Source: Spirochaetota bacterium
GTDB taxonomy: Bacteria; Spirochaetota; UBA12135; COTS27; JAFLEE01
NCBI GenBank assembly: GCA_017302015.1
Contig: JAFLEE010000021.1
Coordinates: 1 to 64,000 of the forward strand
DNA: 64,000 bases
Direction of reading: 5' to 3'
The translations under genes were made by a program, and so were the position numbers. Position 1 is the stretch's first letter. Each line of letters begins with the position of its first letter. Under the pieces are notes generated by a model. It searched no databases. It worked only from the letters and a program-made list of their open reading frames with translations, and had not been told where the DNA came from. Shown here one piece after another: positions 28,718 through 48,441 of this stretch.

Positions 28718-28740
28718 TTTAGGCCGACTCCGGGTATCCT
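28712..28740 (+). promoter_or_regulatory. Promoter of the SPFH pair
   Basis: TTGTAA (28712-28717), a 17-bp spacer, TATCCT (28735-28740). The -35 overlaps the stop codon of the GH20-like gene. A perfect 7-bp hairpin CGGGGCC-CGGC-GGCCCCG at 28748-28765 lies in the leader before the first SPFH gene. Confidence 0.55.
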
Positions 28741-28787
28741 CTCATCACGGGGCCCGGCGGCCCCGAAACATTCCTTGGAGGCGACGA

Positions 28788-30679: not shown

Positions 30680-30795
30680 CCCGCAGGGGAGCTTCGCCCC
30701 CCGAAGTCTGCCTGGACCGTTTGCCTGGCAGGGGCGCAGCCTTTTCTGACGGGTAGGGTCCGCCCTAGAGGTAGACACAGGAAAACGGGCATTTC

Positions 30796-30813
30796 AGGCG
30801 GCCGGCGCCGCCT
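30796..30813. terminator. Possible terminator hairpin after the SPFH pair
   Basis: AGGCGGC (30796-30802) and GCCGCCT (30807-30813) form a perfect 7-bp stem with loop CGGC, 117 bp after the second SPFH stop and before the GH42 promoter. A short A run (30822-30826) follows, and no T tract. Confidence 0.4.
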
Positions 30814-30839
30814 CCACCTCCAAAAAGTCGTTATTCCCC

Positions 30840-30868
30840 TTGAGGTCCCCTATGGGACATGAAATACT
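30840..30868 (+). promoter_or_regulatory. Promoter of the GH42 gene
   Basis: TTGAGG (30840-30845), 17-bp spacer, AATACT (30863-30868). Within the spacer is the palindrome GTCCC-CTAT-GGGAC (30845-30858), a possible operator. Transcription from here excludes upstream in-frame starts and supports ATG 30888. Confidence 0.5.
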
Positions 30869-30887
30869 TAGGGCTTCCGGAGGACCC

Positions 30888-32954
30888 ATGAAACGCCATT
30901 CCCCCATCCACCCCTCGGTCAAACGCCTGCTCCACGGGGGGGACTATAACCCCGACCAGTGGCTCCATATGCCCGAGATCATCCGGGAAGATTTCCGGCT
31001 CATGCCCCTGGCCCATTGCAATACGATGAGCGTGGCGATCTTCGCGTGGACGGCCCTCGAGCCTGAAGAGGGCCGCTTCACCTTCGATTGGCTCGACGAC
31101 ATCATGGGGCGCCTCGAGAAGGGGGGGCACCACGCCATCCTCGCCACCCCCAGCGGGGCCCGTCCGGCTTGGCTCGCCCAGAAGTACCCCGAGGTGCTGC
31201 GCGTCACCCGCGACCGCCACCGCAACCTCTTCGGCGTGCGCCACAACCATTGCTTCACCTCGCCCGTCTACCGGGAGAAGGTGGCGCTCATGAACGGCAA
31301 ACTCGCCGAGCGTTACGGCAAGCATCCCGCGACCGTCCTGTGGCATCTCTCCAACGAATACGGGGGCGATTGCCATTGCCCGCTCTGCCAGGACGCCTTC
31401 CGCGCCTGGCTCAAAAAACGCTTCGGCGGGGATCTCGATGCCCTCAACCGCGCCTGGTACACCGCCTTCTGGAGCCACACCTACACCGATTGGAGCCAGG
31501 TCGAATCGCCCTCGCCGCGCGGGGAATGGATCACCCACGGGCATAACCTCGATTGGCGGCGCTTCGTCACCCACCAGACCGCCGATTTCATCCGGGCCGA
31601 GAGCGCCCCATTGAGGCGCCTGGCCCCCGGCATCCCCATCACGACGAACCTGATGAGTTTCTACGACGGCCTCAACTATTGGGAGATTTCCAAAGACCTC
31701 GACCTCGTCACCTGGGATAATTACCCCACGTGGCACAAGCCCGGCGAACAGGCGCTCATCGCGTCGAAGACGGCGATGGCCCACGACTTAAACCGCGGCC
31801 TCAAGCAGGGCAAACCCTTCCTCCTCATGGAGAGTTCGCCGGGGCCGACGAATTGGCAGCCCGTCGGGCGCCTGCGCAAGCCCGGCATGCACAAGCTCGC
31901 CTCGCTCCAGGCCGTGGCCCACGGGAGCGATTCGGTGCTCTATTTCCAGTACCGCAAGAGCCGGGGCTCGTCGGAGAAGCTCCACGGCGCCGTGGTCGAC
32001 CATCTGGGCACGGAGCACGGGCGGATGTTCAAGGAGGTCGGGGAAACCGGGGCGCTCCTCGAGAAGGTCGCCGGCGTCATCGGGTGCACCACCGGGGCGA
32101 AGGCGGCGGTCGTCTACGATTGGGAGAACCGTTGGGCCATCGACGACGCCAAGGGCCCCCGAAACGACGGGCTCAAGCGCTACCTGGAGGAGTGCGAAGA
32201 CCACCACCGCGCGCTGTGGCGCCTCGGCATCGCCTGCGACGTCATCGACCAGACCCAGCCCCTGGACGGCTATGCCCTCGTCATCGCCCCGATGTCCTAC
32301 ATGGTCCGCCCGGGCTTCGCCGAGCGCCTGGAGGCCTTCGTGGCCGCCGGGGGCACCCTCGTGACCGGCTTCTTCTCCGGCATCGTCGATGAGCACGATT
32401 TGGTGCACCTGGGCGGCTGGCCCGGACCGCTTCGGAAACTCACCGGCGTTTGGGCCGAGGAGATCGACGCCCTCTACCCCGAAGAGGAGAACGCCGTGGT
32501 GATGGGGAAGAACCCCCTGGGCCTCAAGGGCCCGTACCGGGCCCACACGTTCTGCGACCTCATCCACGCCGAAACCGCACAGGTGCTGGCCGTCTACGGG
32601 AACGATTTCTATGCGGGGCGCCCGGCGGTCACGGTCAACCGTTTCGGCGCCGGCGACGCCTGGTACCTGGCCGCCCGCACCGATTTCCGCTTCCTCGCCG
32701 AGTTCTACGAGGCCCTGTCGGCTAAACTCGCCCTTCCCCGGGCCGTGGCGGGGCCGCTGCCGGAGGGGGTGAGCGCGGCATTGCGCGGCGGCGGCGACGA
32801 GCGGTGGCTCTTCCTCATGAACTATAACGAACGTCCGGAAAAGGTGGACATCGGGCCGGAAAAATGGCGGGATGTGGAAAAGGACGCCCTCTTCTCGGGG
32901 AAGGTCTTCCTCGCGCCCTTGGGAATCCGGGTTTTCCGCCGGGGCTTCGCTTAA
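30888..32954 (+). CDS. GH42 beta-galactosidase
   Basis: Hydrolyses beta-galactosides, presumably in the cytoplasm as there is no signal peptide. GH42 features: LLHGGDYNPDQWL at the N-terminus, FAWTALEPEEGRFTFDWLD, PAWLAQKYPEVLRV, VLWHLSNEYGG with acid/base Glu157, and LLMESSPGPTNWQ with nucleophile Glu315. The zinc cluster of the family is represented by Cys122, Cys162, Cys164 and Cys167 (DCHCPLC). The trimerisation domain (about 400-610) and the small C-terminal beta domain are present. 688 residues, normal. ATG 30888 is preceded by CCGGAGGACCC. The gene appears to be a single unit with its own promoter and a terminator hairpin over its stop. Confidence 0.9.
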   Translation: MKRHSPIHPSVKRLLHGGDYNPDQWLHMPEIIREDFRLMPLAHCNTMSVAIFAWTALEPEEGRFTFDWLDDIMGRLEKGGHHAILATPSGARPAWLAQKYPEVLRVTRDRHRNLFGVRHNHCFTSPVYREKVALMNGKLAERYGKHPATVLWHLSNEYGGDCHCPLCQDAFRAWLKKRFGGDLDALNRAWYTAFWSHTYTDWSQVESPSPRGEWITHGHNLDWRRFVTHQTADFIRAESAPLRRLAPGIPITTNLMSFYDGLNYWEISKDLDLVTWDNYPTWHKPGEQALIASKTAMAHDLNRGLKQGKPFLLMESSPGPTNWQPVGRLRKPGMHKLASLQAVAHGSDSVLYFQYRKSRGSSEKLHGAVVDHLGTEHGRMFKEVGETGALLEKVAGVIGCTTGAKAAVVYDWENRWAIDDAKGPRNDGLKRYLEECEDHHRALWRLGIACDVIDQTQPLDGYALVIAPMSYMVRPGFAERLEAFVAAGGTLVTGFFSGIVDEHDLVHLGGWPGPLRKLTGVWAEEIDALYPEEENAVVMGKNPLGLKGPYRAHTFCDLIHAETAQVLAVYGNDFYAGRPAVTVNRFGAGDAWYLAARTDFRFLAEFYEALSAKLALPRAVAGPLPEGVSAALRGGGDERWLFLMNYNERPEKVDIGPEKWRDVEKDALFSGKVFLAPLGIRVFRRGFA

Positions 32955-32988: not shown

Positions 32989-35610
32989 TCAGAAGGTGAT
33001 GGCGAGACCGAAGGTGAACTGGTTGCCGTACTTGGCGCCGGCGCCGAAGATCCGCAATTGGGTGGCGGCGTCGAGGCGGTAACTCATGAGGCCCAACTCG
33101 ATGTTGGCCCCCAGGGAGGCGCTGAGCACCGGGATCCCCGATTCGAGGATCATGCCGCTGCGCACCTCGAAGGCGCCGAGGAAGCGGTAGGCGGCGCCGA
33201 AGGCCGCGTGGTGGTCTTCGATCTCGGAGTAGCCGTAATGGCCGTAGAGCACCAACCCGTGGTTCTTGGTATGAAGGAACTCGTAATTGAGGTCGGCGCT
33301 GACGGCCATCGGCAGGGCTTCCGCCGTGGGCCCCCCCCAGGTCATGCCGGTCCCGAGGTTGCGCACCGAGGCGCCGAGGGCCAGGGTGTCGCGTTTGCGC
33401 GTGGAACCGCGGTAGATCATCTCGGTGACGTAGTCCCGCCAGCCCAATTCGGTCAGCACCTGGGCGTGCTCCCGCTCGACGGCGGCGACCGAGGCGCTCC
33501 CGGCCTTGCGGGCCTGCTCGGCGTGGGCTTTCGCCTCTTTCTCGAGGGCGGCGAGGCGGGCCTTGTCCTTCCCGGCTTCGCGGACGCGCAGTTCGAAGCC
33601 CTGGCGCCAGATCGCCTCGCGGACGCGGTCCATCCATTCCGCGGTCTTGAGGGTGCCCTTGCGCTTGGCCACGGCCTCTTTTTTCAGTTGGCCGATGAGC
33701 GCCGTCTTCGATCGCCAGACGGAGAGCAGCAGGTTCTCGAACACGACCTGCTCCTTGCGCTTGTAGTCGCCCAGGGCGTCGCGGCGTACTTTTTCGTTGG
33801 CGCTGTTGAGGAAATCGAGCCGCCGCTTGAGTTGGATGCGGTCGAGGCCGGCGAGGGCGGCGTTCTGCCCGCGGTCGAGTTCCGCGCGCTTGGCGTTGAG
33901 GAGGTTCTGGAGGTCGCGTAGCGAGGCGTCGCGCTCCAGGCCCCAAGCCCGCTGGAACTGGAAGATGGCGAGCTTCTGCTCGAGGAGGCCGTTGAGGCCC
34001 GCCCAATCGATCTCCGCGAGCTCGTTCTTGAGGAGTTTCGCCCCGATGGCGCGGCGCTGGGCGAGGCCGGCCTGGAATTCCCGCTCGCGCTGCTGGCGGG
34101 CGGCGCCGGCGTTGGCCAGGGGGATCTTGATCACTTGCCCCGGGAGAAGGGGCTGCTTGGCGTCGCGCTTATTGGCGACGAGCAGGTCGCTGACCGCCTT
34201 GCGCGAACCGAGTTTCGCCTCGGCGATCTTCGCCCAGGTATCATCGGGGCGGACTTGGTACTCGGCGAAACCGGCGAGTTCCTCGGCGCGGCGCGCGAGG
34301 ATCTTATCCCGTTCCTCCAGATCCTTGTAGTAGCGGCGTGGGGGAACGGTCAGCAGCTGCCCGACGGCGGCGGTCTGGTTCGTGGGCGAACCGTTGGCCC
34401 GCCGCAGGCTCTCGCCCAGTTCGGGGTCCTTGTAGAGGCGCTTGGAGAGCTCGGCCCAGGATTCCCGCTGCAGCACCTTGTATTGGATCGTCTCGACCGC
34501 ATGGCGCGCCTTGAGGCTCTCGGGGGAGGGGACCCAGATCTCGGTCTGGATCCACAGATCGTAGCGGGCCTGGAGATTGCGGGCCTCGGAGGCGAGGGCT
34601 GGGGAGGCTTTCTCGAGGCGGGCGTTCACCAGCACGAGGGCTTCCTCCACCTGGCGGAGGTCCTGTTCCAGGGCGTCGCGCATGCTGCGTTCATTGTCGC
34701 GGGTTTCGTCCACCGTCTCCTTGTGGAGGGCGTCGAGTTCCTGGCGCGCCTGGCGGACCAGGTTCGTGACATCGAGGGGGGTGAGGTCTTTGGAGGGATC
34801 GTTGTAGATGCGGAAGATCTCGCCGCGGGTTTGGTTGACTATGGCGAGGTCTTCCTTGCGGTGGTCGTAATAATCTTCCCAATACCGCAGGATGAGTTCG
34901 CGCTTGCGCATGGCTTCTTTGGAGGGCGATTTCCCCTTGGGAACCCCCGCTAAAAGGCTGGCTTCTGTTTCCTTTTTTCGTTGCCCGTACTCCCGATCGA
35001 GATCGGCGAGGCTTAGGAGGGGCCGCGGTTGGCCGAGGTAGCCCACGGGGAAGCGGGCGGAGAGGTTCGCATCCACCAGGAAACTATCCCCGGAGAGCTT
35101 ATCGAACTGGCTCTTATAGTAATTGAGGTTCACGCCCATGCGCCACTGCTTGAGGAAGGCTTCGGCGCGGGAAGGGCTGCCGTCCTTGCGCCGCCAGGGG
35201 AGGCTATCGGGATCGAAGACCAGGGGGATCCCCACGAGGAAATCGCTGGCGTCGAGGAGGGCGACGGCGCCCCCGCGCTCGTCGATTTTGGAGAACCCGC
35301 CCGCGTTGAAATAGGTGAGGTAGGCCCCCAAGCGCAGTCCGGGGAGCACGCTGCGCCCCAGGCCCACCTGCAAATACTGCAGGGAGAGGTTCATGGGCAG
35401 GGTGGCGTTGTAGAAGGAGGCCTCGGTCTTATTGCGCAGGGAGAAGGCGCCGCTATAGGTGCGGCCCCAATTGGCGCTCCCCGCCAGGAGATCGTAGGAG
35501 CGCCCCCCGCCGATGACGCTGGGCGACATCTCGTAGAGCAGCAGGCTGGAGGAGGCCCCGAGGGGGATCCACAGGAGCGCCAGGAGACAGAGGGATCTCG
35601 TTAGTCGCAT
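32989..35610 (-). CDS. Outer-membrane barrel (PorV/UPF0164-like) with LysM/coiled-coil insertion
   Basis: 873 residues with signal peptide (RLTRSLCLLALLWIPLGA). The first ~200 residues and the last ~170 have the alternating pattern of a beta barrel and resemble the two ends of PorV/UPF0164-type proteins (TLALGASVRNLGTGMTWGG, YRFLGAFEVRSGMILESG). The last residue is Phe (FGLAITF), the usual BAM signal. Between them lies an insertion of about 480 residues: charged coiled coil (about 210-340), LysM 1 (YKVLQRESWAELSKRL), LysM 2 (YQVRPDDTWAKIAEAKLG) and a second coiled coil to about 690. The insertion should reach peptidoglycan if periplasmic. Start ATG 35610 lies inside the end of the upstream gene (ATGCGACTAA), so translation is coupled. 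Last gene of the operon. Confidence 0.7.
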   Translation of the reverse strand: MRLTRSLCLLALLWIPLGASSSLLLYEMSPSVIGGGRSYDLLAGSANWGRTYSGAFSLRNKTEASFYNATLPMNLSLQYLQVGLGRSVLPGLRLGAYLTYFNAGGFSKIDERGGAVALLDASDFLVGIPLVFDPDSLPWRRKDGSPSRAEAFLKQWRMGVNLNYYKSQFDKLSGDSFLVDANLSARFPVGYLGQPRPLLSLADLDREYGQRKKETEASLLAGVPKGKSPSKEAMRKRELILRYWEDYYDHRKEDLAIVNQTRGEIFRIYNDPSKDLTPLDVTNLVRQARQELDALHKETVDETRDNERSMRDALEQDLRQVEEALVLVNARLEKASPALASEARNLQARYDLWIQTEIWVPSPESLKARHAVETIQYKVLQRESWAELSKRLYKDPELGESLRRANGSPTNQTAAVGQLLTVPPRRYYKDLEERDKILARRAEELAGFAEYQVRPDDTWAKIAEAKLGSRKAVSDLLVANKRDAKQPLLPGQVIKIPLANAGAARQQREREFQAGLAQRRAIGAKLLKNELAEIDWAGLNGLLEQKLAIFQFQRAWGLERDASLRDLQNLLNAKRAELDRGQNAALAGLDRIQLKRRLDFLNSANEKVRRDALGDYKRKEQVVFENLLLSVWRSKTALIGQLKKEAVAKRKGTLKTAEWMDRVREAIWRQGFELRVREAGKDKARLAALEKEAKAHAEQARKAGSASVAAVEREHAQVLTELGWRDYVTEMIYRGSTRKRDTLALGASVRNLGTGMTWGGPTAEALPMAVSADLNYEFLHTKNHGLVLYGHYGYSEIEDHHAAFGAAYRFLGAFEVRSGMILESGIPVLSASLGANIELGLMSYRLDAATQLRIFGAGAKYGNQFTFGLAITF

Positions 35611-38600
35611 CGTTTCACCCACACGCGGAAGGATTTTTCATAGGCGGGGCCCTCGAGGCGGATGAGGTACATCCCCGTCGGCACGGTGCGGCCCGCGCCC
35701 CGTTCCCCGTGCCATTCCACGATGTCGTCCACCACCGGGAGGTCGCGAACCCGGTAGCCGAGGAGGTCGTAGACCGTCACCCGGATCTTCGGCACATCGG
35801 CGGCGTCGCGGATGAAGATGCGCACCGGAGCGCCGGAGCAGGTGTCGATGACCGTATTCGCCGCCGCCGCCGGCTCGTTGCCGAACTCGATGGAACGCTT
35901 GATGGCGAAGGAGCGGGTCTGGGTTCCCCCTTCCACCGTCATCGTCGGCTCATAATTCACGCCGAGCACCGTCACGGGCACGACATCGCTGCCTTGGAGC
36001 GCGGGGGACAAACTCACCGTGAAGGTATTTCCCGCCAAGGCCGAGGCATCCGCGGCGAGGAGGAGGTAGAGGGTGGTCCCCCCGGCGTTGAGTGGGAGCG
36101 GACTGGCGAGGGTCAGGAGGGCCTGGCCGCCCGTGAAGGTCACCGTACCGCTGACCGAGGCGTCCTTCTCGTCGTAGCCCTCGACCTCGCCGGACTCGGC
36201 CACAAGCCGCCCCTTGAGCACCCGGTCTTGCCCGCCCGTATTGGTCTCGGTGAAGACCAGACGCTGGAGCTGGAGGCCCGCGTCGCCATCCTCCGCGGCC
36301 AAGCGGAGTTTGAGGGCGACCTGCTCGCTCCCTTGGCGCAGCGTGTCGCCCATGAGGTTGGTGGCGGAGACGCTCGCCTTCAGGCGATCGAGGCGCAAAA
36401 CGGCGCGGTTGGTCATCGCGAAATAACTCTCCGGTCCCAGGGCGCCCCCGTTGGGGCCGGAGGCCGCGACATTGGTGACCTGGAAGGTGACCGAGGCGTC
36501 GACGGCGAACTCGACGGGGGTGAAGGTGACGAAGAAACGCGTGAAACTGGGCAGGGGGAGGAGGGCGGGGTTCGGGAGCGCCAAGGTGGCCGTGGTCGCG
36601 TCATCGGCGAGGAATTGGTTGCTGGCCAGGAGGATCCCGTTGGAGAATTGGGTATAGGTGGAGGCGTTGGTCTGGTAGCGCACCCGCAGTTCGCCGCGGA
36701 AACGCTTCGAGGCGCCGAGGGCGGCCACGGTCAAGCTGGTGAGCGTCTCGCTCCCGCTTTGGACATCCCGGTAGGCGTCGATCATGAGCACGGGGGTCTC
36801 GACGCCGAGCACCGTGCGCGCGGGGGCCGCGGAGGCGAGGCTCGGGAGATTGACGTCCCAGGGCTGGACAAAACTACTCATGACGACGGCGTTGGTGGCG
36901 GGGGTCGGGCCCGTGACCATCCCCGACGGGTAATGGGCTTGGGACCAGCCATCGGCCCAGGGATCGGTGAAGTGGAAGGCCCCTGGGCGGATCTCGAGCC
37001 CGATTGTGCGCCCGATATTGGTCGTGGAGGCGCCGATGGTGTAGGTCACCCAGAGGTCGCGGGGCGCGGAACCGGCGAGGGTCAGGGTCGAGATATTGAA
37101 GGGGACGACGCCCCCGTTCTGGCCGAAGGAGACGTTGGCGAGCAGGTCGTCCTCGTTCCAATAGCCGGTCGTGGTCTCGAAGGCGCGCTTATTGCTGTAG
37201 ATCTTCACCGAGGTGATGGTGTTGCTGTAGGCGTTGCAGAATCCGTTGGTGAAGACATCCAGGGAGGAAAGGATGGCGGTGGCGTCGGGATCCTCGGCGG
37301 CGAGGCGCAGGCGCAGGTAGGCGTTGGCCCGGCCGTTATTCGGCGCGAAATAGTCCCCGTAGATCGCGTCGAGGTCGTTGGAGATGAAGAGCACGTCGAC
37401 CCGGGAGGAATCCACCCGCACCTCGGAGGGGGGAAGGTTCGTCAGGTGGTGGGTATTGGTGAAGAGGGCCGCGCCGCCGCCGCCGTCGCTGCCGAGCCCG
37501 AGCAGATTGGTCACCTGGAACGCGAAACGGTCGGCCATGGCCAGGGGGAGGGCGTTGGTGAGTTCGAAGGCGAGGTAGAAGGTCGTCGGGTTCACCTCGT
37601 CGAGGGTGATATTGCTCAGCGCGGCGGGGATCGAGAACGGCGCGCCCGCGGCGACGAGGTTGCTGCCCACGATGGGGTAATTGAGGCCGAAGGTATTGGA
37701 GCCGAAAGGGGCCTGGTAGAGGTAGGCCCATCCGGAAACCTGGGAAGAGGTCCCCCCGCTGCGAACGGCGACCCCGATGTTCGTGAGGACGAGGGGGTTA
37801 TTGTCCGTGTCGCGGAAGAGGGAGAAGGACCCCATGGGGACGCGCTGGTTGGAGGTGAACGATTGGGGGCGCCCGGCGTAGCTGACCCCCGTGAGGTTGA
37901 AATCCCAGAGTTTGGTGTCGAAGGAAACGATGGCGTTGCTCTGGAGCACCGCGGGGTAAGGCCCGGCGCTCACCAGCCGTGGCCGCTGGTCGTATTCGAT
38001 GAAGGCCGAATCGACGATCCCGTCGGCGAAACTCAAGGCGTTCGTCAGGCCGGGCACCATGAGGGAGACCCGGCGGTTGGTGACGGCGGCGAGATCGACG
38101 TCGTAGGCGCCCCAGAAGGAGGTGGCGCCGGGGGCCACGGCCAAGGCGGGGGAGAGCGTGACGAGGAAGCGCCCATTGGCGTCTTGGGTGGCCAGGCCGA
38201 GGAGTGTGTCGTTGGTGGACTCGAAGATCCCGTTGCCGTCGTCTTTGTAGAACCGGAAGAAGCCCAGGTCGCTGGGGAGGGCGTTTCCCGCGTTGGAGAC
38301 GATGAGGCCCGAGAGGTAATTGGTCGCATCGACATCGAGGTTGGAAAGCACCAGGGCGAAGGCCAGGTTATTGAAGCTTCCCTGCTTCACGCTTTGGGAG
38401 AGATTGGAGAGGATGTGGAGGCTCGTGCGGAAACTATCGACGCGCGCGAGGGTCGCCGCCGCATTGGTGAGCACCGGGAGGTTCGTGAACGACGCCGCCG
38501 CGGCCCCGTAGATGCCGCCGAGGTTCGTCGGGGCGAGCCCGATGGTGTTCGACCAGGTGGCCGGGCCGCTATTGGTGAGGCGAAGGGCGAGGAAGAACCG

Positions 38601-41600
38601 GGTGAACGCGTCCGGGAGGGAGGAGGCGGTGTGGAGGAAGTTTTCCCCGGAGGGGAAGATGAGGTTCACCGAGGTCTGGCCCGGGGCGAAGAAGGCGTTG
38701 GTGACCCGCCGGTGCTGGTTGGTGAGGAAGGTGGAGACGTTGCTGTCGGCCCTCCAAAGCGAAACCTCGCCACCCAAGGCCGGGGTGAGGCCCGCGAGCC
38801 GCACCGCCACGTTGGTGAGGTACTCATTAGCGGGGGATTCTTCATCGGCGCGCAGATCGAAAGAGTGCATGAGGTAGAGGTTGCTGGCGCCGATGGAAGC
38901 GGGGGCCGCGCCCGCGCTGGCGATGACGTTGAAATCCCAGGGGGTGTAATTGAACGAGACGATCACCGCGTTGCTGGGGGTCGAGGGGCCGCTGGTGGCG
39001 CCGGTGACGAAGGAGCTGTTGGAGAAACCGTCGGCGGTGGGATCCCCGAAGCCGAAGGAGCCGTTGGTGATGGTGAACCCGATATTGCTCCCGACCGGGG
39101 CGAGGATGGTGACGTTGTAGGAGAGATAGAACACGGCCTCGTTGGTCCCCTGGAGGATCTGGGGGGAATAGAGGGCGATGCGCAAGCTCCCGTTGGTGAT
39201 CTTGCCCAGGCCCAGGAAATCGCCGGCGGGATTCTCGAGGGAGACCTGGTTGATGCAATCCGAGGCGACGTTGAGGGTCGTGAGGCTATTGGTGGCCACG
39301 TCGAGCCAGGTGAAGGCGTGCAGCGCGTCGGGGTCCTTCCCCCGCAGGCTGATCTTTAGGTACTTGTTCTTCACCGAGGTCTGGGGCACGGTGGGCATGA
39401 GGAGCCAATTGGAGATGTACTGGACGACCACCTCGCTGTTATCGATGCGGGCCTCCGCCGAGGCCTGGTTGGTCAGGAGGCCGGCATTGGCCACGACCCC
39501 GCCGTCGGGCCCGGAAGCCACAAGGTTCGTGATCTGGAAGGAGGCGCCGTTGGTCATGGCCAGGTCGATCTGGTTGGTGAGGCGGAAGACGAGGAAGAAG
39601 GTGTCGGGGTTTTGGAGGAAATGCACCGCCGTGTTCGATAGGGCGAAATTGGTGAGGGAAAACCCGGTGCCCGCGACCGTATTGGAGGCGAGCAGCGTGT
39701 CGGAAGTCTGGAAGGCCCCGTCCCCGTTGGCGTCCCGGAAGAGGTAGCCCACCCCGCGGGTTTGGGAGCATCCATTGGTCGCGCTCAGTTTGACTTCGAT
39801 GCCCCGTAACACCTGGGCGGCCACGGGCGCGTTGGAATAATCCCCGCCATTGGAGTTCTCGCTATCCATCGTGAGGCCGAAGGAGCCCACGGGAACCCAT
39901 TGGTTGGTGGTGAACGCCTGGGGCATGGAGAGGTAGGATACCGAACTCAAGTTGAAATCGAAGTTCTGGGCCCCGGAGGGGATGATGGTGGCGAATTGAT
40001 TGGACGCGGGCAGCAGGTTCGAGCCGAGCACCGTCGGCCTCGGGTCGCTTTGGCCGGCGGAATAATCGGCGGTGTCGAAGGGGTCGGCCCAGAGGGTCCC
40101 GCCGCCGAGCACCTTGAGGTTCACCGTGCGGCCGACCGTGGCCGTGTACTTCGTGTCATAGGTGACCCAAAAGATCTTCGTCGTCGCGCCGGTGAGCGGC
40201 TCGGGCACCGCGGTCTGGAGGAGGACGGAGCGGTTGGAGCCCATGGGGCCGGCGAAGAGCAGCGTGTCGGCGCTCCCGGAGAAGGCCCCGTCGCCGTTAT
40301 CGAGGAAGACCTTGATGAAGCCCAGGTCGAGGGAACCCGCGTCGCCGGCGTTGGTGACCACCATGCCGGAGAAATAATTGGTCGTGTCGGGGTCGTCGTT
40401 CGACAAGGCCAGGCGCAGGGCGAGATTGTCGAAACTCCCCTGCTTGATGCGGAGCACCGTATTGGTGTTGGTCACCGTGGTGGCGTCGGCGAAAAGGTGG
40501 AGGCTCTCCACCCGGGAGAGGCGGCTCCCGGGCGTGCCCAGGGCGGCGAGGCTGTCGATGAGCCCGTTATTGGTGCCGCGCGCTTGGACGTTCGTGACGC
40601 GCAGGGCCAGGGTATTGGACCAGAGGGCCGCGGCGGCATTGGTGAGGCGCAGGGTGAACCAATAGCGCGTCGGGGCCACGGTTTCCCGGGATTGGCTCTG
40701 CTCGGCGCAGGGGAAGAGGATCGGGGACGCGGTCCCGCTGAAGAATGCGTTGGTGACGCGCACGAGGCCGTTGGTCGCGAAGGCCGCCGCGTTGCTGTTC
40801 GCCCCGTCGCGCCAGAGCACGACCTCGCCCATGGCGTTGGGGGCGTTGCCGAGCACCTGCACGACCAGGTTGGTGAGCATCTCGTTGCTGCTTTCCCCGT
40901 CGGCGATGAGGTCGACGTAGGTCATGGGGACGAGGTTGGATACGCCCAAGGCCACGGGCGCGACGTTGAGGGCGGCGACGATCTGGTAGTCCCAGGGGTA
41001 ATCCTGGCCGGGGGGGCCGACCGTGATGCGATTGTCGGGGTAATTGGCGTTGGTGACGGCGAGGTAACTGGAGCCCGAGATGGCGGCGCCGTCGACCCGG
41101 GTCTCCCAGACCTGGTTCGTGGCGAGCACGGGGCTCCCGTAGTATTTGAACGAAACGATGTCGAGGCCGCCCCGGGCGATGGGCGAACTCGAATAGTCGA
41201 TGTAGAGGTAATTCGACGCGCCGAGGCCGGGGAGACTATTGGTCATCCGAATAAAGGCGGACTCGTTGGTGCCCAGAAGGATCGAGTCGAAATTGGAGAG
41301 CCCGGCGACGTTGGTGAAGGTGGGCGGGATGCGGATGGCCACCCGGGTGATATCCTGCAGGTTGAGGTTGGTCTTGTTCTGGAGGTAGAAGGTGAAGGTG
41401 TAGGGGGAGGCGCCCTGGTTGATCAAGTTCGGGATGATGGAAGCCTGGGCCTCGGAGGGGCTGAGCGTGCGCGAGACCGGGGCGTTCACCGCGGCGCGTT
41501 GGGGCCCGGTGGTGGCGTAGCCGTTCTTCTTCCCCGCGGGCATCGATTCGAATTGGACGCAATCGGCGGAGGCCGCGAACGACTCGTTGGTGAACTCGTT

Positions 41601-42065
41601 GGAGATGGCGAGGTTGACGGAGAGCCAGATATGCTGGCGTGCGGCGACGGCGTTGTTCGAGATGGCCGACCCGAGCGCCACCCAGAGTTCGTTCGTGTTC
41701 GTCACCAGGGCCATGGCCCCGGTATCGGGGAAGGCCCAGGCGCCGTCCCAGGCGGCGGGCACGAGGTCGGTGAGTGTCGCCCCGTCGTAATAGCTGCGCA
41801 CCTGGATATTCGTGTGGATGGGTCCCGCGTTCCAATCGAAACCGGCGGGCTTGACGAGGCGGATCCAATTGACGCCGGCGAAGGTATTGGAGACGATATT
41901 GCTCAGCACGAACGAGAGGTTCTGGGGGGCCGCCGAGGGCACGATCTGGTTGTTGGAGAGGTAGAGGCCGAAGGGCAGGGCCGGGAGGGCGAGGCACCAG
42001 AGCGCCGCGAAAACCCTGGGGAGCAAAGCCCGCCGGCGGCCCGGGGAGTACTTCATGGGTTTCAT
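35601..42065 (-). CDS. Giant secreted modular protein with C-terminal sorting-like domain
   Basis: 2154 residues with a signal peptide (LLPRVFAALWCLALPALP). Residues about 60-190 are a module shared with the two upstream proteins (TFAGVNWIRL ... VQFESMPAGKKNGYATTG). Five tandem modules follow; each opens with a PW/LW/NF-D-[FYV]-[NQ] block, at about residues 357, 702, 1042, 1387 and 1735, i.e. every ~345 residues. Each module has two halves of about 170, contains strings such as LTNLVVQVLG, RVTNAFF, KQGSFDNLALRL and TNYFSGMVVTNAG, and is very rich in Thr-Asn. The C-terminus (about 2055-2154) is a FlgD/type IX-like beta-sandwich (VTVYDLLGYRVRDLPV, VPTGMYLIRLEG) ending KRCD. ATG overlaps the upstream stop (ATGA). 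Probably surface-displayed; ligand unknown. Confidence 0.75.
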   Translation of the reverse strand: MKPMKYSPGRRRALLPRVFAALWCLALPALPFGLYLSNNQIVPSAAPQNLSFVLSNIVSNTFAGVNWIRLVKPAGFDWNAGPIHTNIQVRSYYDGATLTDLVPAAWDGAWAFPDTGAMALVTNTNELWVALGSAISNNAVAARQHIWLSVNLAISNEFTNESFAASADCVQFESMPAGKKNGYATTGPQRAAVNAPVSRTLSPSEAQASIIPNLINQGASPYTFTFYLQNKTNLNLQDITRVAIRIPPTFTNVAGLSNFDSILLGTNESAFIRMTNSLPGLGASNYLYIDYSSSPIARGGLDIVSFKYYGSPVLATNQVWETRVDGAAISGSSYLAVTNANYPDNRITVGPPGQDYPWDYQIVAALNVAPVALGVSNLVPMTYVDLIADGESSNEMLTNLVVQVLGNAPNAMGEVVLWRDGANSNAAAFATNGLVRVTNAFFSGTASPILFPCAEQSQSRETVAPTRYWFTLRLTNAAAALWSNTLALRVTNVQARGTNNGLIDSLAALGTPGSRLSRVESLHLFADATTVTNTNTVLRIKQGSFDNLALRLALSNDDPDTTNYFSGMVVTNAGDAGSLDLGFIKVFLDNGDGAFSGSADTLLFAGPMGSNRSVLLQTAVPEPLTGATTKIFWVTYDTKYTATVGRTVNLKVLGGGTLWADPFDTADYSAGQSDPRPTVLGSNLLPASNQFATIIPSGAQNFDFNLSSVSYLSMPQAFTTNQWVPVGSFGLTMDSENSNGGDYSNAPVAAQVLRGIEVKLSATNGCSQTRGVGYLFRDANGDGAFQTSDTLLASNTVAGTGFSLTNFALSNTAVHFLQNPDTFFLVFRLTNQIDLAMTNGASFQITNLVASGPDGGVVANAGLLTNQASAEARIDNSEVVVQYISNWLLMPTVPQTSVKNKYLKISLRGKDPDALHAFTWLDVATNSLTTLNVASDCINQVSLENPAGDFLGLGKITNGSLRIALYSPQILQGTNEAVFYLSYNVTILAPVGSNIGFTITNGSFGFGDPTADGFSNSSFVTGATSGPSTPSNAVIVSFNYTPWDFNVIASAGAAPASIGASNLYLMHSFDLRADEESPANEYLTNVAVRLAGLTPALGGEVSLWRADSNVSTFLTNQHRRVTNAFFAPGQTSVNLIFPSGENFLHTASSLPDAFTRFFLALRLTNSGPATWSNTIGLAPTNLGGIYGAAAASFTNLPVLTNAAATLARVDSFRTSLHILSNLSQSVKQGSFNNLAFALVLSNLDVDATNYLSGLIVSNAGNALPSDLGFFRFYKDDGNGIFESTNDTLLGLATQDANGRFLVTLSPALAVAPGATSFWGAYDVDLAAVTNRRVSLMVPGLTNALSFADGIVDSAFIEYDQRPRLVSAGPYPAVLQSNAIVSFDTKLWDFNLTGVSYAGRPQSFTSNQRVPMGSFSLFRDTDNNPLVLTNIGVAVRSGGTSSQVSGWAYLYQAPFGSNTFGLNYPIVGSNLVAAGAPFSIPAALSNITLDEVNPTTFYLAFELTNALPLAMADRFAFQVTNLLGLGSDGGGGAALFTNTHHLTNLPPSEVRVDSSRVDVLFISNDLDAIYGDYFAPNNGRANAYLRLRLAAEDPDATAILSSLDVFTNGFCNAYSNTITSVKIYSNKRAFETTTGYWNEDDLLANVSFGQNGGVVPFNISTLTLAGSAPRDLWVTYTIGASTTNIGRTIGLEIRPGAFHFTDPWADGWSQAHYPSGMVTGPTPATNAVVMSSFVQPWDVNLPSLASAAPARTVLGVETPVLMIDAYRDVQSGSETLTSLTVAALGASKRFRGELRVRYQTNASTYTQFSNGILLASNQFLADDATTATLALPNPALLPLPSFTRFFVTFTPVEFAVDASVTFQVTNVAASGPNGGALGPESYFAMTNRAVLRLDRLKASVSATNLMGDTLRQGSEQVALKLRLAAEDGDAGLQLQRLVFTETNTGGQDRVLKGRLVAESGEVEGYDEKDASVSGTVTFTGGQALLTLASPLPLNAGGTTLYLLLAADASALAGNTFTVSLSPALQGSDVVPVTVLGVNYEPTMTVEGGTQTRSFAIKRSIEFGNEPAAAANTVIDTCSGAPVRIFIRDAADVPKIRVTVYDLLGYRVRDLPVVDDIVEWHGERGAGRTVPTGMYLIRLEGPAYEKSFRVWVKRCD

Positions 42066-43909
42066 CGGCGCACCACCTTGCTGTTTTCCGGCCCGACGCC
42101 CGCCTGCCAGCCGCAGGTGGCGTATTTGCCCTTGGAGGACGAGGGCATCGCGTCGAATTGATCGGCATTCACATGGAGGGCGAGCAACCCCGGTTCGGGG
42201 ATCCGCAGGCTGATGTCGATGGCGCCCTCCGCGCCATCGGCGGCCACCACTTGATGGCCGAGGACGAGGAAGAGTTCATCCCCCTCCCGCCGATACGCGG
42301 CCTGGTTCTCGTCGGGATGGCGCGCCCCGTCCATCGGGACGAGTTCGAGGAGGCGCTCGCGCCCCCCCGGGAAGATGCGCACCCGGTCGACCACGCCCGG
42401 TCCCGCGCCGGAAAGCCAGCCCGGGTGCCCGCGCAGGCGCACGTGGTTCACCCCGGCGGTGGTGTCCGGGGAGAGGGCGTTGGTGATGAGCACCCAAAAT
42501 CCGCCGGGGGTCGGGAGGGTCCGGAAGCCGGTGCCATCCGTGGCGCTTCGGGCCAGGAGGCGGTCGAAGTTCCCGTGGGCGTAGCGGTTATCCTCGTACC
42601 AATTGGGCCGGGAACTCATGCGTTGGGCGTGATAGACGGCCATCTGGAGGGCGCGGGAGAAGAGGACGGGCTCGCTCTTCAAGAAGAGCCACTCGTTGGG
42701 GAAGGGAAGGCCGGCGTTGCCGTAGGGGTTGGGGTTGACCCACATGGAGACGAGGGATCCATCGTGGGTGAGGCGGAAACCGAGGGCGTTGGTATTGGGG
42801 GTCGTGGCCCCGTAGACGCGGATATAATCGATGTAGCTGTTCGTGCCCTGGCTCGTGATGCGGATCGTCACGTTCGTGTTCCACAGCCCCTCGTCGATGA
42901 AGGTCGCCACCGCCGTGGTGTCGTAGAAATTATTCTGGCTATTGGCGCCCAGATTGCAGGGTTGGTAATTGCCGCCCTGGTGGGGGAGCAGCCAGGGGCC
43001 GTTGGTGCCGTTGGTGGAGACCTGGATGCGGTGGATGGGTTGCCCGCCGCCCGTATTGGAGGCCACGATCGCCATGCGCATATGGGCAATGCGGCTCAGG
43101 GGCGGGAGCGTGACCCACGCGTTGGAGGGCATGACCAGGCAATTGGTACCGAAGCCGCTGTAACTGACCCCCGGCACCACCCCGGCATTCGAACCCCAGT
43201 CCCAGCCCGGCGGGGGGGTGAAATTGGAGAAGGTCTCGAGGAGTAGGAGCGGCGCGCTCCCCGCGGTGCGGTACTTGCGCAGGAAGAGGTTGGTGACGTT
43301 CGTCGAGACGCCCCCCGGCCGACGGGCCGTGAAGAGTTCGTTGGTGAGGCTGCGATCCGCCCCGTAATAATAGCCGATCTTCTGCAGGGCGATGTCGGCA
43401 TAGCCCTCGTAATCCCCGAAGTCGAACCACGAAGCCCCGTTTTGGAAATTATAGGTGGCGCTATTGTCGAAGACCTCGGTGACGAGTTGGTCGGGATCGG
43501 CGTAGAAAGCCATGCCCAGGAGCACCTGGTTGAACTTCTCGATGCCCGAACCCGAATCGTAGTCCAATAAACCGACCTCCCGCACGATCTCCCAGCCGAA
43601 GGGCTTTTCGGGGGTCGGGGTGCAGGTATTGGTGTGGAGGATGCCCCGGGTGGACCAGAATCCGTTGAACGCCGCGTTATCGCAGGTCCAGCCCCGGAAG
43701 GCGAGTTTCCCGCTTACGATGGAATCCGCCGCCTGCACCGAGAGGGAACTGGAGGAGACGGTGCCATCGCGCCCGTAGCAGAAATTGGTGCGCCAGGCCG
43801 TGCCCGGGGCGCCGATGGGCGCGTTGAAGTCTTCCGAGACGTAGTATCCGAACCCCGCGGAAAAGGCGGCCAAGAGCGCGGCAAGGATGCGGAGTGCGGC
43901 TCGCTTCAC
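42062..43909 (-). CDS. Secreted protein, paralogue of the adjacent gene
   Basis: 615 residues, signal peptide (LRILAALLAAFSAGFG). The N-terminal part begins DFNAPIG and NFCYGRDGTVSSSS and has KLAFRGWTCDN and YNFQNGASWFDF, as in its upstream neighbour. The middle is a galactose-binding or LamG-type beta-sandwich (ALGFRLTHDGSLVSMWVNPN, PNEWLFLKSEPVLF). The last ~120 residues (484-601) are the module shared with the giant protein: TTAGVNHVRL, LLELVPMDGARHPDE, NADQFDAMPSSSKGKYATCG. Starts immediately after the upstream stop (43910) and overlaps the next ATG by 4 bp. Function unknown; secreted binding protein is the safest description. Confidence 0.72.
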   Translation of the reverse strand: MKRAALRILAALLAAFSAGFGYYVSEDFNAPIGAPGTAWRTNFCYGRDGTVSSSSLSVQAADSIVSGKLAFRGWTCDNAAFNGFWSTRGILHTNTCTPTPEKPFGWEIVREVGLLDYDSGSGIEKFNQVLLGMAFYADPDQLVTEVFDNSATYNFQNGASWFDFGDYEGYADIALQKIGYYYGADRSLTNELFTARRPGGVSTNVTNLFLRKYRTAGSAPLLLLETFSNFTPPPGWDWGSNAGVVPGVSYSGFGTNCLVMPSNAWVTLPPLSRIAHMRMAIVASNTGGGQPIHRIQVSTNGTNGPWLLPHQGGNYQPCNLGANSQNNFYDTTAVATFIDEGLWNTNVTIRITSQGTNSYIDYIRVYGATTPNTNALGFRLTHDGSLVSMWVNPNPYGNAGLPFPNEWLFLKSEPVLFSRALQMAVYHAQRMSSRPNWYEDNRYAHGNFDRLLARSATDGTGFRTLPTPGGFWVLITNALSPDTTAGVNHVRLRGHPGWLSGAGPGVVDRVRIFPGGRERLLELVPMDGARHPDENQAAYRREGDELFLVLGHQVVAADGAEGAIDISLRIPEPGLLALHVNADQFDAMPSSSKGKYATCGWQAGVGPENSKVVRR

Positions 43910-45781
43910 CTAACGCCTCCCTTGATCGGCCACGGCGGAGGGGGCCTCTTCGGGCGCCGCCTCCTGCCAACCGCAGGTGGCGTGGCGTCCCCGCTGCCCC
44001 GCGGGCATGGAGCCGAAGGCATCGGCGTTCACGAGAACCCGGACCGGTCGCGCCGGGCTTGATGCGAGGTCCAGTTCGAGGCGCACGACGGAGCCGTCCT
44101 CCGGCGTGATCTGGCGGCCCAGGACGAATGAGAGTTCATCCCGCCCCGCGCGCCAAGAAATTTCATCGGTTCCGGGGAATCGGGCGTCATCCCAGGCGAC
44201 GGGGGACAGATCCCGGGAGGATCCGGAAAGGAGGATCCGTGCGCCTCGAAGCGGACGCGTCGCGACGCCCAGATTATTTCCGGAGAGGCGTACGTGGTTG
44301 ACGCCGGCCGTTTCTCCGCGGGCCAGGGCCAGGCGCAGCACGAGGCGGCGGCCCTCGTCTTCCCAGTGAAGGCCTGTGCCCAAGGTGGCGCTGCGAACGA
44401 GGAGGTTGTCGAACTCGCCGTGGGCGTAGCGGTTGGCGTTGTACCAATTCGGGCGTGCGGCGCAGCGCTGTCCGTGGCCGACCATGATCTGGAGTCGTTG
44501 GTTGAAGAGCACCGGTTCGCTCTTCAGGAAAAGCCACTCATTGGGGTAGGGGAGCGCGCCCGCCCCGTAGGGGTTCGGGTTGACCCACATGGAGATCTGG
44601 GACCCGTCGTGGGTGAGGCGGAATCCGAGGGCGTTGGTGTTGGGGACGCTCGCGCCGTAGATGCGCAGGTTGTCGTAGTTCCCGTTGGTGCCCAGGTTGA
44701 CGATGAGGAGGGAGACGTTGGTGCCCCAGAGCGCCTCGTCGAGGAAATCGGCCACCGCCTCGGGTTCGCTCCAGCCGTTCTGGTTATTGGCGCCGATATT
44801 GCAAGGCCAATAATTGCCGGTGGACGGGTTGGGGACGATCCAAGGCCCGTTGGTGCCGTTGGTGGAGGCGTACACCCGGGTGCTCACCTGGGCCGAGCCG
44901 GTATTGGAGGAGCGGGTGAGGATGCGCAGGTGGGCGGGGTAGGGCACCGGCGGCGTGATGATGTAGCCGTTGACCGGGAGCGTGAGGCAATTGGTGTCGG
45001 CGCCGCTCATGGTGTAGCTCGTGCCGCAGAGGATGGCGGCGTTGGAGCCCCATGCCCAGCCCGGAGGGAGGGCGCTCGTGTTGGTGAAGTTCTCGGAGAG
45101 GAGGAGCGGGGCCATCGCCGTGCGGTAGCGCCGCAAGAAGAGGTTGGTGACGTTCGTCATCCCGCCGCCGGGGCGCACGGCCGTGCGCAATTCGTTGGTG
45201 ACTTCCCGTTCGGCGCCGTAATAATAGCCGATCTTCTGCCGGGCGATATCGGAGACGCCCTCGTAGTCCACGAAATCGAAGTACGAGGCGCCGTTCTGGA
45301 AATTATAGGACGTCGAATTGTCGAAGACCTTGTTCACCAGGCCCGACGGGTCGCTATAGAGGGCGATGCCGAGGAAGACCTGCTTGAACTTCTCCACCGA
45401 ATAGGCGGAATCGAAGTCGAGCCAACCCTTCTCGCGGATCACCTCGAAGCCGAAGGGTTCCACCGCCGTGGCCGCGTACTGGTTGGTGCCCAGGATCCAG
45501 CGGCACGACCAGAAGCCGTTGTAATCGTCGTTATCGCAGGTCCAGCCCCGGAAGGAGAGTTTGCCCGCGCTGATGCCCGTGCTTTGGCGGGAGGTGGAGG
45601 AGGAACTGACGGTGCCATCGCGCCCATAGCAGAAATTGGTCTGCCAAGGGCTGCCTGCGCCGCCGATGGGGCTCTCGAAAGCCTCGAAAAAGGCGTGGGC
45701 ATGCCCGGGGACCTGGAGCAGGAAGGGGAGGACCAAGAACGGGCGGTGGCGAAGGAAGGAACGAAATACGCTACGAAACAT
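43910..45781 (-). CDS. Secreted protein, first gene of the surface operon
   Basis: Tandem paralogue of the next gene, colinear over the whole length. Shared segments include NFCYGRDGTVSSSS, KLSFRGWTCDN, FDNSTSYNFQNGASYFDF, ALGFRLTHDGSQISMWVNPN and the C-terminal NADAFGSMPAGQRGRHATCG. From ATG 45781 it starts MFRSVFRSFLRHRPFLVLPF, a normal signal peptide; an upstream in-frame Met (45844) would add 21 residues with no signal character. 623 residues. The C-terminal ~40 residues after the shared module are hydrophilic and differ from the paralogue. It heads the four-gene operon, which has no gap larger than a few bases. Confidence 0.72.
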   Translation of the reverse strand: MFRSVFRSFLRHRPFLVLPFLLQVPGHAHAFFEAFESPIGGAGSPWQTNFCYGRDGTVSSSSTSRQSTGISAGKLSFRGWTCDNDDYNGFWSCRWILGTNQYAATAVEPFGFEVIREKGWLDFDSAYSVEKFKQVFLGIALYSDPSGLVNKVFDNSTSYNFQNGASYFDFVDYEGVSDIARQKIGYYYGAEREVTNELRTAVRPGGGMTNVTNLFLRRYRTAMAPLLLSENFTNTSALPPGWAWGSNAAILCGTSYTMSGADTNCLTLPVNGYIITPPVPYPAHLRILTRSSNTGSAQVSTRVYASTNGTNGPWIVPNPSTGNYWPCNIGANNQNGWSEPEAVADFLDEALWGTNVSLLIVNLGTNGNYDNLRIYGASVPNTNALGFRLTHDGSQISMWVNPNPYGAGALPYPNEWLFLKSEPVLFNQRLQIMVGHGQRCAARPNWYNANRYAHGEFDNLLVRSATLGTGLHWEDEGRRLVLRLALARGETAGVNHVRLSGNNLGVATRPLRGARILLSGSSRDLSPVAWDDARFPGTDEISWRAGRDELSFVLGRQITPEDGSVVRLELDLASSPARPVRVLVNADAFGSMPAGQRGRHATCGWQEAAPEEAPSAVADQGRR

Positions 45782-46137: not shown

Positions 46138-47484
46138 TTAACGCGCCAGTCGATAACAGAGAAGCCGTTGGCGGTAGCGGAGATAGAGATTTCCGCCGGC
46201 GACGATGGGCTTCGTCCACGATTGCTCCTGGACTCTGGGGATCGCGTTGGGGAAACTCGAGGCGAGCTTAAAGGAGGCCGGGTCGGGTTTCACGAGGAAG
46301 AGGTTCCCCTTATGGTCGAGGCAGAGGAGGTACTTATCCACCTGGATGGCCGTCCCCCCGCCCATGACGGGGGTCTTCCAACGGAGTTTTCCGGTGGCGA
46401 GGTCGAGGCAGCGGAAATCCCCCCGGTTGCCCAGGCTTGAGCCGCTATAGCCATAGAGGTTCGACCCGATCACCAGAGGATCGGTATGGGCCCCGCAGAG
46501 GTCCCGGGTCTTCCAACGAACGGCGGCCCCATTGCTGCCGACTTCGGCGGCGAAGGCGCCCGAGGTGGAGGTGGCGATGACCAGGTTCCCGGCCACGACG
46601 GGAGTGGTGATGTTCATGCCGTAGGAAGTCTTCCAATCGATGTTCCATAGGCGGGAACCCGAGGCCTCATCGAATCCGGCGAGGCCCTCTCCATGGAAAA
46701 TGACGAGTTCGTTTCGCCCGGCCAGGGGGAAGGGAGCGAGCACGGGCGAGGCGTATCCCGCGGGCCCGCCGGAGACGGCCCAAATCGGTTCTCCGTTGGT
46801 TTTGTGGAAAGCGGCGGCGTGGAGTTTTTCCCCGCCCTGGATATAGAGGTAATTCGAGGCGACCAACGGGGAGCTGCTATGGCCCCATTCGGGGGCCGCA
46901 CCCCCTTCGTGGTCGAAGTCGCGGCGCCAGAGGAGGTTTCCGTCGCTGAGCCTTAGGCAGAGCAGTTCGCCCCCACGGCCGAGGGTATAGACGCGATCGC
47001 CATCGATGAAGGGGGTGGCCCGGGCGCCCGGCCCGTAATTATCCTTGGCGGCCGCGGGATACATGGTTTTCCAACGGAGGGCCCCCGTCTGCGGATCGAG
47101 GCAGAAGATGAGATCGTGCTGGGCGTCCCGGCCCATGACGACGAGGTGGTTGCCCTGGATGACGGGGCAACTCCAAGCGGCGGTGTCGGGCCCCTGGCAG
47201 AGATAGCGGACCTCCCAGAGTCGGGTGAGGCCGCCGCGCCAATCGGTGCGCAGGGTGAGGGACGCGGTATTGTCCTGGTTTCGGCCCCTCCAGGAGGGCC
47301 AATCTTCCGGGGTGTTCGTGACCGCCGCCGGCCGCATCATGATGCTGGGGATCGGGTCGGTGCCGCCGCGAAGATCGTCCCACCCGTGGGTGATCTGGGT
47401 GAAGTAACGTTTGACCAAGAGGGCGGCCGCGATGGAAAGCGCCACCACCAAAAGAAGAACGATCCAGCGTTTTCGGATTTTCAT
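46138..47484 (-). CDS. Membrane-anchored PQQ-like beta-propeller protein
   Basis: 448 residues. An N-terminal anchor or signal helix (KRWIVLLLVVALSIAAALLV) is followed by an eight-bladed WD/PQQ-like propeller with repeated blade ends: FCLDPQTGALRWKTMYP, LCLRLSDGNLLWRRDF, GFDEASGSRLWNIDWKT, RCLDLATGKLRWKTPV. No quinoprotein catalytic Asp/Cys-Cys is seen, so it is more like the BamB-type or verrucomicrobial/planctomycetal PQQ-like propellers than a dehydrogenase. The motif WPSWRGRNQDNT before the first blade (about 62-73) is typical of those proteins. It follows the LamG gene by 18 bp on the same strand. Confidence 0.8.
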   Translation of the reverse strand: MKIRKRWIVLLLVVALSIAAALLVKRYFTQITHGWDDLRGGTDPIPSIMMRPAAVTNTPEDWPSWRGRNQDNTASLTLRTDWRGGLTRLWEVRYLCQGPDTAAWSCPVIQGNHLVVMGRDAQHDLIFCLDPQTGALRWKTMYPAAAKDNYGPGARATPFIDGDRVYTLGRGGELLCLRLSDGNLLWRRDFDHEGGAAPEWGHSSSPLVASNYLYIQGGEKLHAAAFHKTNGEPIWAVSGGPAGYASPVLAPFPLAGRNELVIFHGEGLAGFDEASGSRLWNIDWKTSYGMNITTPVVAGNLVIATSTSGAFAAEVGSNGAAVRWKTRDLCGAHTDPLVIGSNLYGYSGSSLGNRGDFRCLDLATGKLRWKTPVMGGGTAIQVDKYLLCLDHKGNLFLVKPDPASFKLASSFPNAIPRVQEQSWTKPIVAGGNLYLRYRQRLLCYRLAR

Positions 47485-47502
47485 CGCGGAATGAAGCGAC
47501 TG

Positions 47503-48219
47503 CTATTTCACCCCGGCCAGGGCCTTGATCTCCTCGGGTCCCAGGGGTTTCTTCCAATATTTGAGTTCATCCACGCTCCCGGCGAAGGATTGCCACGAGG
47601 AGCCCACCGTAAACGGTTGGTCGCCGGAGAGGTCGGCCTTGTCCAGCCATTCCTTCGACGGGGTCGCCTCGGCGTCGAGAAGCCCGTTGAGGAAGATCCG
47701 CAATTTCCCGGCCTCGCGGTCGCAGACCAAGGCGACGTGGGTCCATTGGCCCAGGGCGATGGCTTTCTGGGAGTTGCAGCTGCTATTAAGCGCTTGGCTA
47801 TTGCTGTCGGCCTTGTAGCCGCCGCTGACGTTGACCCTGCCATCGCCCAGGAGATCGCCCACCACGAAGAACCAGGGCCATTTGTCGAAGCCGAAGAAGC
47901 GGCGCTGCTTCTGCTTGCTCTCGATGTCGAAAGTCGTCGGCTGGATCCAGCAGGCGATGGTGAAGGAACCCTTGCCCGGCTGCTTGTCTTTGGGCACGCT
48001 CAGTTTCACGAAGTGTTTGTTGGTCCCCGAAAGCACGACGGCTTTGCCTACCTTGCCCGGGCCCCACGCGGCCGTGGTCACACCGTTTAAGCCCGAGCCG
48101 GAGGAGTCCCCGACGTTGGTGCCGCTTCCCTCATCGAAACTCCAGGTACCAGTGGGCGCGGGCGCGGGCGCGGCGACCACGAAGGAGGCGAGGGACATCA
48201 GGAAAAGAATTCGTTTCAT
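47503..48219 (-). CDS. Secreted LamG/concanavalin-like domain protein
   Basis: 238 residues from ATG 48219. Signal peptide KRILFLMSLASFVVAAPAPA, then one LamG (laminin G/pentraxin-like) jelly roll filling the protein: TGTWSFDEGSGTNVGDSSGS, FTIACWIQPTTF, WTHVALVCDREAGKLRIFLN and a final VDELKYWKKPLGPEEIKAL. This is the form common in surface glycan-binding proteins of PVC bacteria. It may bind a carbohydrate. It is probably co-transcribed with the propeller gene downstream. Confidence 0.82.
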   Translation of the reverse strand: MKRILFLMSLASFVVAAPAPAPTGTWSFDEGSGTNVGDSSGSGLNGVTTAAWGPGKVGKAVVLSGTNKHFVKLSVPKDKQPGKGSFTIACWIQPTTFDIESKQKQRRFFGFDKWPWFFVVGDLLGDGRVNVSGGYKADSNSQALNSSCNSQKAIALGQWTHVALVCDREAGKLRIFLNGLLDAEATPSKEWLDKADLSGDQPFTVGSSWQSFAGSVDELKYWKKPLGPEEIKALAGVK

Positions 48220-48441
48220 GGGAACTCCGGCGGGGGCGAGGGGTGGCGAATTGTAGCGTGGATGCACGGTGGCCACCATGCGGAGGCGGGAGTCTGGACT
48301 CCGCCTTCGCCCAGAGGGCCCATTCGATTGGCGCGCATTCGATCAGGGAGCGGCCCCGTCGCGCAGGCGCCCGCGCGGTCCGCGGCGGCATTCCCTTCTC
48401 GGCGGCTCATGAGAGGCGGTACCCGCCGGATGCGGCCCCAT

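Follow-up and report, generated by a model that had tools for sequence, protein, structure and literature searches.

The type IX secretion system (T9SS) is confined, according to published reports, to Bacteroidetes (PMC4793230) or to the Fibrobacteres-Bacteroidetes-Chlorobi group (PMC11205867). In Flavobacterium, pairs of a substrate with a type B C-terminal domain (CTD) and its cognate PorP/SprF shuttle have been described, in some cases with a PorE wall anchor (PMC12618676, PMC9143113). Type A substrates use the PorV/SprA pathway (PMC10994853), and in F. johnsoniae a single PorV serves all of them (PMC12618676).

The operon analysed here lies in a 64,000-nucleotide window, contig C80 of a 5.4 Mb, 165-contig assembly (93% complete) from UBA12135, a class of the Spirochaetes/Spirochaetota (PMC7118179, PMC13234546). 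Like the type B plus PorP/SprF (plus PorE) cassettes of Flavobacterium and Porphyromonas, it places a barrel gene directly downstream of a likely CTD substrate, large and of adhesin type, and includes a putative peptidoglycan anchor, as some of those operons do. Unlike them, it comes from a different phylum and its barrel matches the PorV rather than the PorP/SprF family; the anchor, there a separate PorE lipoprotein, is here inserted in the barrel. By analogy, the best reading is that this split PorV would combine in a single polypeptide the roles divided between PorP and PorE in Bacteroidota. With the type A pathway the system shares a PorV-family carrier, a SprA homologue and an Ig-like CTD. 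It departs from that pathway in having several PorV genes, many of them adjoining CTD genes, a split barrel with a LysM stalk, and no recognised GldL/GldM motor.

In the inverse autotransporters (type Ve), barrel, LysM and passenger are parts of one chain, with the LysM at its N-terminus. These proteins (intimin, YeeJ; PMC5595812) likewise hold a surface adhesin by an outer-membrane barrel and a periplasmic LysM. Here, by contrast, giant and barrel are two distinct chains, and the LysM sits in an internal loop. Their barrels are unrelated to the PorV-family barrel, and the comparison is an analogy only.

The operon and its proposed substrate

The four open reading frames are contiguous on the minus strand, in the order P1, P2, giant, barrel, as a sequence-only reading of this DNA had given them (Table 1). 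P1 and P2 abut with a 0 bp gap, P2 and the giant overlap by 4 bp (ATGA-type), and the giant and barrel overlap by 10-22 bp. Each product has, by eye, a signal-peptide-like N-terminal stretch. The surroundings (26804-32954 and 55333-56367) hold genes for GH20C, two Band_7 proteins, a GH42 beta-galactosidase and a GH130 phosphorylase; the GH42 gene is convergent with that of the barrel. On the P1 side, 0.3 kb upstream and likewise on the minus strand, genes for a PQQ/BamB-type propeller and a LamG-domain protein (46138-48279) possibly encode further envelope proteins.

Table 1. Features of the operon (window coordinates)
Feature	Position	Strand	Basis or remark
P1	43910..45781	-	644 aa ORF opening at 45844; likely ATG 45781; secreted; without CTD
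P2	42062..43909	-	615 aa ORF; secreted; P1 paralogue; without CTD
Giant, modular secreted protein, proposed substrate	35601..42065	-	2154-aa ORF
Module common to giant N-terminus and P1/P2 C-termini	41484..41912	-	A5 profile, E 1e-10
Tandem ~170-aa domains in giant	36864..40973	-	Segment self-comparison
Giant penultimate Ig-like domain	35895..36383	-	VIA-align Z 11.9, rmsd 2.9, 141 residues
Giant CTD, C-terminal Ig-like sorting-type domain	35607..35876	-	VIA-align and weak profiles
Split PorV-family barrel	32989..35622	-	877 aa; likely ATG 35610; hhalign and two collinear HMM pieces
Barrel N-terminal half	35011..35556	-	PorV profile about 31-195; hhalign global E 1.4e-11, local 9.8e-9
Insert, long helices and LysM	33409..35010	-	~535 residues, aa 205-738
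Probable second, degenerate LysM	34342..34494	-	Strand-helix-helix-strand, aa 379-426 in model
LysM domain	34120..34260	-	PF01476 E 5.7e-5, 23.4 bits vs 20.9 cut-off
Barrel C-terminal half	32992..33399	-	hhalign E 1.1e-17; local PorV HMM i-E 2e-14

P1 and P2 are 56% identical, in keeping with their earlier description as paralogous secreted proteins, and their C-terminal module does recur at the N-terminus of the giant. P1 itself has no Pfam or NCBIfam match and no CTD-profile match at E 0.05; it is proposed to be a lectin-like or adhesin module. In G003, the nearest useful relative (listed in the same class), a P2 orthologue immediately precedes a giant N-terminus on contig C480. Elsewhere, in four genomes, CTD proteins occur that include the P1-type domain. 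In two of these (G146, G162) a single protein combines the P1 module with giant-type domains and the CTD, and the barrel follows it; in the other two (G005, G047) a single giant ORF holds both the P1-type domain and the CTD.

The middle of the giant is a run of ~170-residue domains. A block of four domains, about 685 residues long, occurs twice (aa 365-1049 and 1050-1734), and the repeats score 246, 256 and 253 in self-comparison against shuffled maxima of 43-70. The penultimate domain resembles, by VIA-align, the N-terminal domain of Bacteroidales sialidases. For the model of the last 90 residues the best VIA-align match is the PorU CTD (6za2: Z 8.8, rmsd 2.7, 84 residues), with the RgpB CTD (5ag8) at Z 7.7 and other Ig-like folds at Z 7.6-7.8, a small margin below PorU. 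Because the CTD is itself an Ig-like fold, these matches are only moderately specific. Foldseek on the giant C-terminus returned generic Ig folds; it was VIA-align that separated the two domains.

Sequence profiles match this domain weakly and below their curated cut-offs: CHU_C in seven of eight homologues, FlgD_ig in four of eight, and TIGR04183. Against PF18962, TIGR04183 and PF13585 there are at most sub-threshold matches, and PF18962 matches nowhere in the window genome. A search of PDB sequences with the CTD gave weak FlgD and chance matches, and neither it nor the searches with P1 and P2 found a T9SS entry. The type IX-like C-terminal domain of the sequence-only reading stands as a candidate, by its Ig-like fold and its best structural matches, with sequence matches below threshold.

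These results bear on a different account of the giant, in which its FlgD-like C-terminal domain is a stalk Ig only, the protein reaches the surface by another route, and the operon is an ordinary one for binding surface polysaccharides. The FlgD-type matches are as strong as those to sorting domains, and glycoside hydrolase genes lie nearby. The domain is nevertheless C-terminal and linked to PorV genes, and its best structures are T9SS CTDs, so that this account is improbable. The CTD is, in fact, better identified by the company it keeps, its linkage to PorV, than by its fold or sequence.

An interrupted PorV-family barrel

The last gene encodes a PorV-family barrel, judged from profile comparisons of its two halves. 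The hhalign partner was a profile of 15 PorV-family proteins from the phylum, and the full barrel aligned to it as well, through the C-terminal half, at E 2.5e-12; a SprA profile used as control did not match the barrel. The 15-sequence profile itself matches F. johnsoniae PorV (6h3i_F) in the PDB at 1.2e-28 and, less closely, FadL/TodX. Pfam and NCBIfam scans of the barrel gave no PorP match; it is the PorV profile that matches. Directly, NF033709 scores a weak 13 bits, because the barrel is interrupted; across the family, four of nine rows match (best 5.9e-6), the window member at 0.058 and below the 90-bit cut-off. PDB sequences gave only LysM-type matches of note for the barrel, and no T9SS entry.

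An AlphaFold2 model of the whole 877-aa protein, built with four sequences, has pLDDT of about 20-30 in the barrel parts. As these are unusable, the identification rests on sequence profiles, which agree with the earlier call of a PorV-like outer-membrane barrel. A strand count of 6 + 8 was made by eye only, a simple alternation score giving no clean separation of strands from insert. What sets the protein apart from an uninterrupted PorV of ~330 aa is the insert of ~535 residues, and it is classed here among the PorV relatives, as an insert-bearing one, and not among standard PorV proteins.

This insert, missed in the original observation, has helices at aa 205-373 and 505-737 in the AlphaFold2 model, and carries one recognised LysM domain. 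The probable second LysM has no Pfam match; it aligns with a doubled motif in the homologous loci L019 and L102. With the PorV HMM, seven split barrels each fall into two pieces, with the break at about HMM 180-192, and all the alignable ones are interrupted at this single point. HMM 185-191 align with residues 193-199 of Flavobacterium PorV (6h3i_F), a periplasmic loop that has been tested for contact with SkpA (PMC10994853). Since the insertion point matches this loop, the insert would by homology lie on the periplasmic side, where the LysM could meet peptidoglycan.

Other large PorV relatives were seen. A second type of split PorV, on contig C367 of G003 (L070:3780-7289; 1170 aa), has a helical, coiled-coil-like insert of ~800 residues at the same PorV position, with no recognised LysM, and is preceded by two CTD proteins. 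G146:C167 (L101:14121-15998) has the same order, with the barrel only partly covered. Frames of ~1180 aa elsewhere (L124, L126, L127 and similar) were considered as split barrels and set aside; their extensions, long and TPR-looking and found in several genomes, are C-terminal and not inserts.

What the insert does can be read in another way, as a periplasmic arm of the translocon built into a PorV-type shuttle (SkpA/SprE contacts, motor coupling) and not as a static wall anchor. In the Extended Translocon of F. johnsoniae, the loop of PorV to which the insertion point corresponds makes contact with SkpA, and the sister barrel of G003 has its long helices without a recognised LysM. Against such an arm, the LysM-type members have either a recognisable LysM or a conserved LysM motif, evidence that favours attachment to peptidoglycan. 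An arm of this kind is rather unlikely, though it deserves more weight than the stalk account of the giant.

Relatives, translocon genes and linkage

Among 393 genomes of the phylum, LysM-type split barrels occur only in the window genome, G003, G146 and G162. The window genome has a second member, of which the C-terminal end is preserved at a contig end (G000:C133:103743-103904). In the relatives, all seven (two in G003, two in G146, three in G162) lie immediately downstream of a CTD protein, and ends of giant homologues precede split barrels twice in G003, twice in G162 and in G146. G003:C480 carries a P1-like gene, a P2-like gene and the start of a giant, and then the contig ends. The gene order does recur in related genomes, the full four-gene order of G003 being pieced together from separate contigs. 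A contig scan matched only UBA12135 and missed G146 and G162, and is accordingly uninformative on range.

The sequence-only reading called the operon self-contained. This does not hold, since the SprA/Sov homologue (2296 aa) is on a different contig, C16, and the genome contains several further CTD/PorV loci. A sov homologue is present in the assembly: TIGR04189 matches it at E 1.9e-32 in three segments that run collinearly, a score short of the 200-bit equivalog cut-off, and by eye it stands beside RseP-like and DXR-like genes. A profile built from it detects SprA in each of the four genomes that have LysM-type barrels; the G146 match is a fragment at a contig end. In the two genomes of the same taxonomic order, which are only 75-83% complete, neither SprA nor PorV was found. 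Of 60 genomes of the phylum, 25 have SprA/Sov homologues at E <= 0.001, none of which reaches the equivalog cut-off. Searching PDB sequences with SprA gave no T9SS entry. The PorL/M components (GldL/GldM) gave no significant match in the 93% complete genome with profiles that are Bacteroidota-biased.

Linkage was counted with a three-sequence CTD profile and the PorV family profile. Among the 103 PorV matches listed for five genomes, at least 35 are preceded by a CTD on their own strand at a distance of no more than 500 bp, at least two are followed by one, and none has one on the opposite strand. The upstream arrangement was expected 0.34 times, so that the linkage is about 100 times chance. 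In the window genome, CTD/PorV neighbours occur on C97, C17, C94 (where the barrel gene precedes the CTD gene) and C112, and by eye on C155 and C57. CTD-to-PorV pairs are general in the phylum, and the pairing in this operon is not unique. Four genomes (G005, G014, G026, G036) have 31-74 PorV-family matches each, far more than the one PorV that F. johnsoniae uses as type A shuttle. PorV presence alone proved weak as evidence for a T9SS (Fisher p 0.0008, uncorrected for relatedness).

One might instead see in the barrel a channel of the FadL kind, or a wall tether resembling OmpA, that plays no part in secretion and owes its position to operon packing alone. PorV does belong to the FadL-like superfamily, as the FadL/TodX matches show, and 20 of 35 SprA-negative relatives keep a PorV-family match. 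But the barrel is closer to PorV than to FadL, each of the seven homologues comes immediately after a CTD protein, and the CTD-then-PorV order exceeds chance throughout the phylum. There is little probability in a barrel placed here by packing.

A proposed display and anchoring cassette

The operon is probably a type-IX-like surface-display cassette whose barrel also anchors the giant to the cell wall. The earlier pairing of a PorV-type barrel with an adjoining likely CTD substrate and two secreted proteins sharing a module is borne out, and the analogous PorV cycle (PMC10994853) and type B sets of substrate, shuttle and PorE (PMC12618676, PMC9143113) make export followed by tethering most likely. 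The genes, their homologies, the insertion site, the conserved gene order and the SprA homologue in the genome are observations; transport, recognition of the CTD by the barrel, a periplasmic position of the insert, its hold on the wall, and the binding of P1 and P2 to the giant are inferred.

Here, all four proteins would cross the inner membrane by Sec. The CTD of the giant would be recognised by its cognate PorV-family barrel in the SprA/Sov pore, and the barrel would then bring the giant to the cell surface by pulling it sideways from the pore. The inserted helical stalk and its LysM domain or domains would hang into the periplasm and grip peptidoglycan, the barrel remaining as a permanent tether in a chain of giant fibre, barrel and cell wall. 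Since in relatives their module is part of CTD proteins, P1 and P2 would be adhesin- or lectin-like tips bound non-covalently to the giant.

Several facts count against this cassette. P1 and P2 lack a CTD, and the mechanism does not account for their route across the outer membrane; the CTD and SprA scores fall under curated cut-offs, and PF18962 is negative; GldL/GldM are unrecognised, and the barrel has no confident model. A broader proposal is more tentative, a conjecture somewhat short of an even chance: that this Spirochaetota lineage has type-IX-like export without a recognisable gliding-type motor, with private PorV shuttles, and with a split PorV that is both shuttle and permanent peptidoglycan anchor, giving a continuous linkage of wall, membrane and fibre.

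The sequence-only reading held such an operon to be undescribed as a unit. Half of this stands: substrate-then-shuttle pairs are known, as type B CTD with PorP/SprF in Flavobacterium, and the novelty is a version built on PorV, with the anchor within the barrel itself, and the phylum in which it occurs. Two things are surprising, a split PorV that bears a LysM and the wide occurrence of SprA/PorV/CTD sets in the phylum; a limited literature search found neither described. Linked sets of this kind in many genomes of the spirochaete phylum would widen the range of the T9SS. Genomes with many PorV genes are a natural test of how shuttles choose their cargo. In the split barrel the LysM could be deleted and the barrel itself left intact, which makes the PorP-PorE model of anchoring testable in a single protein.
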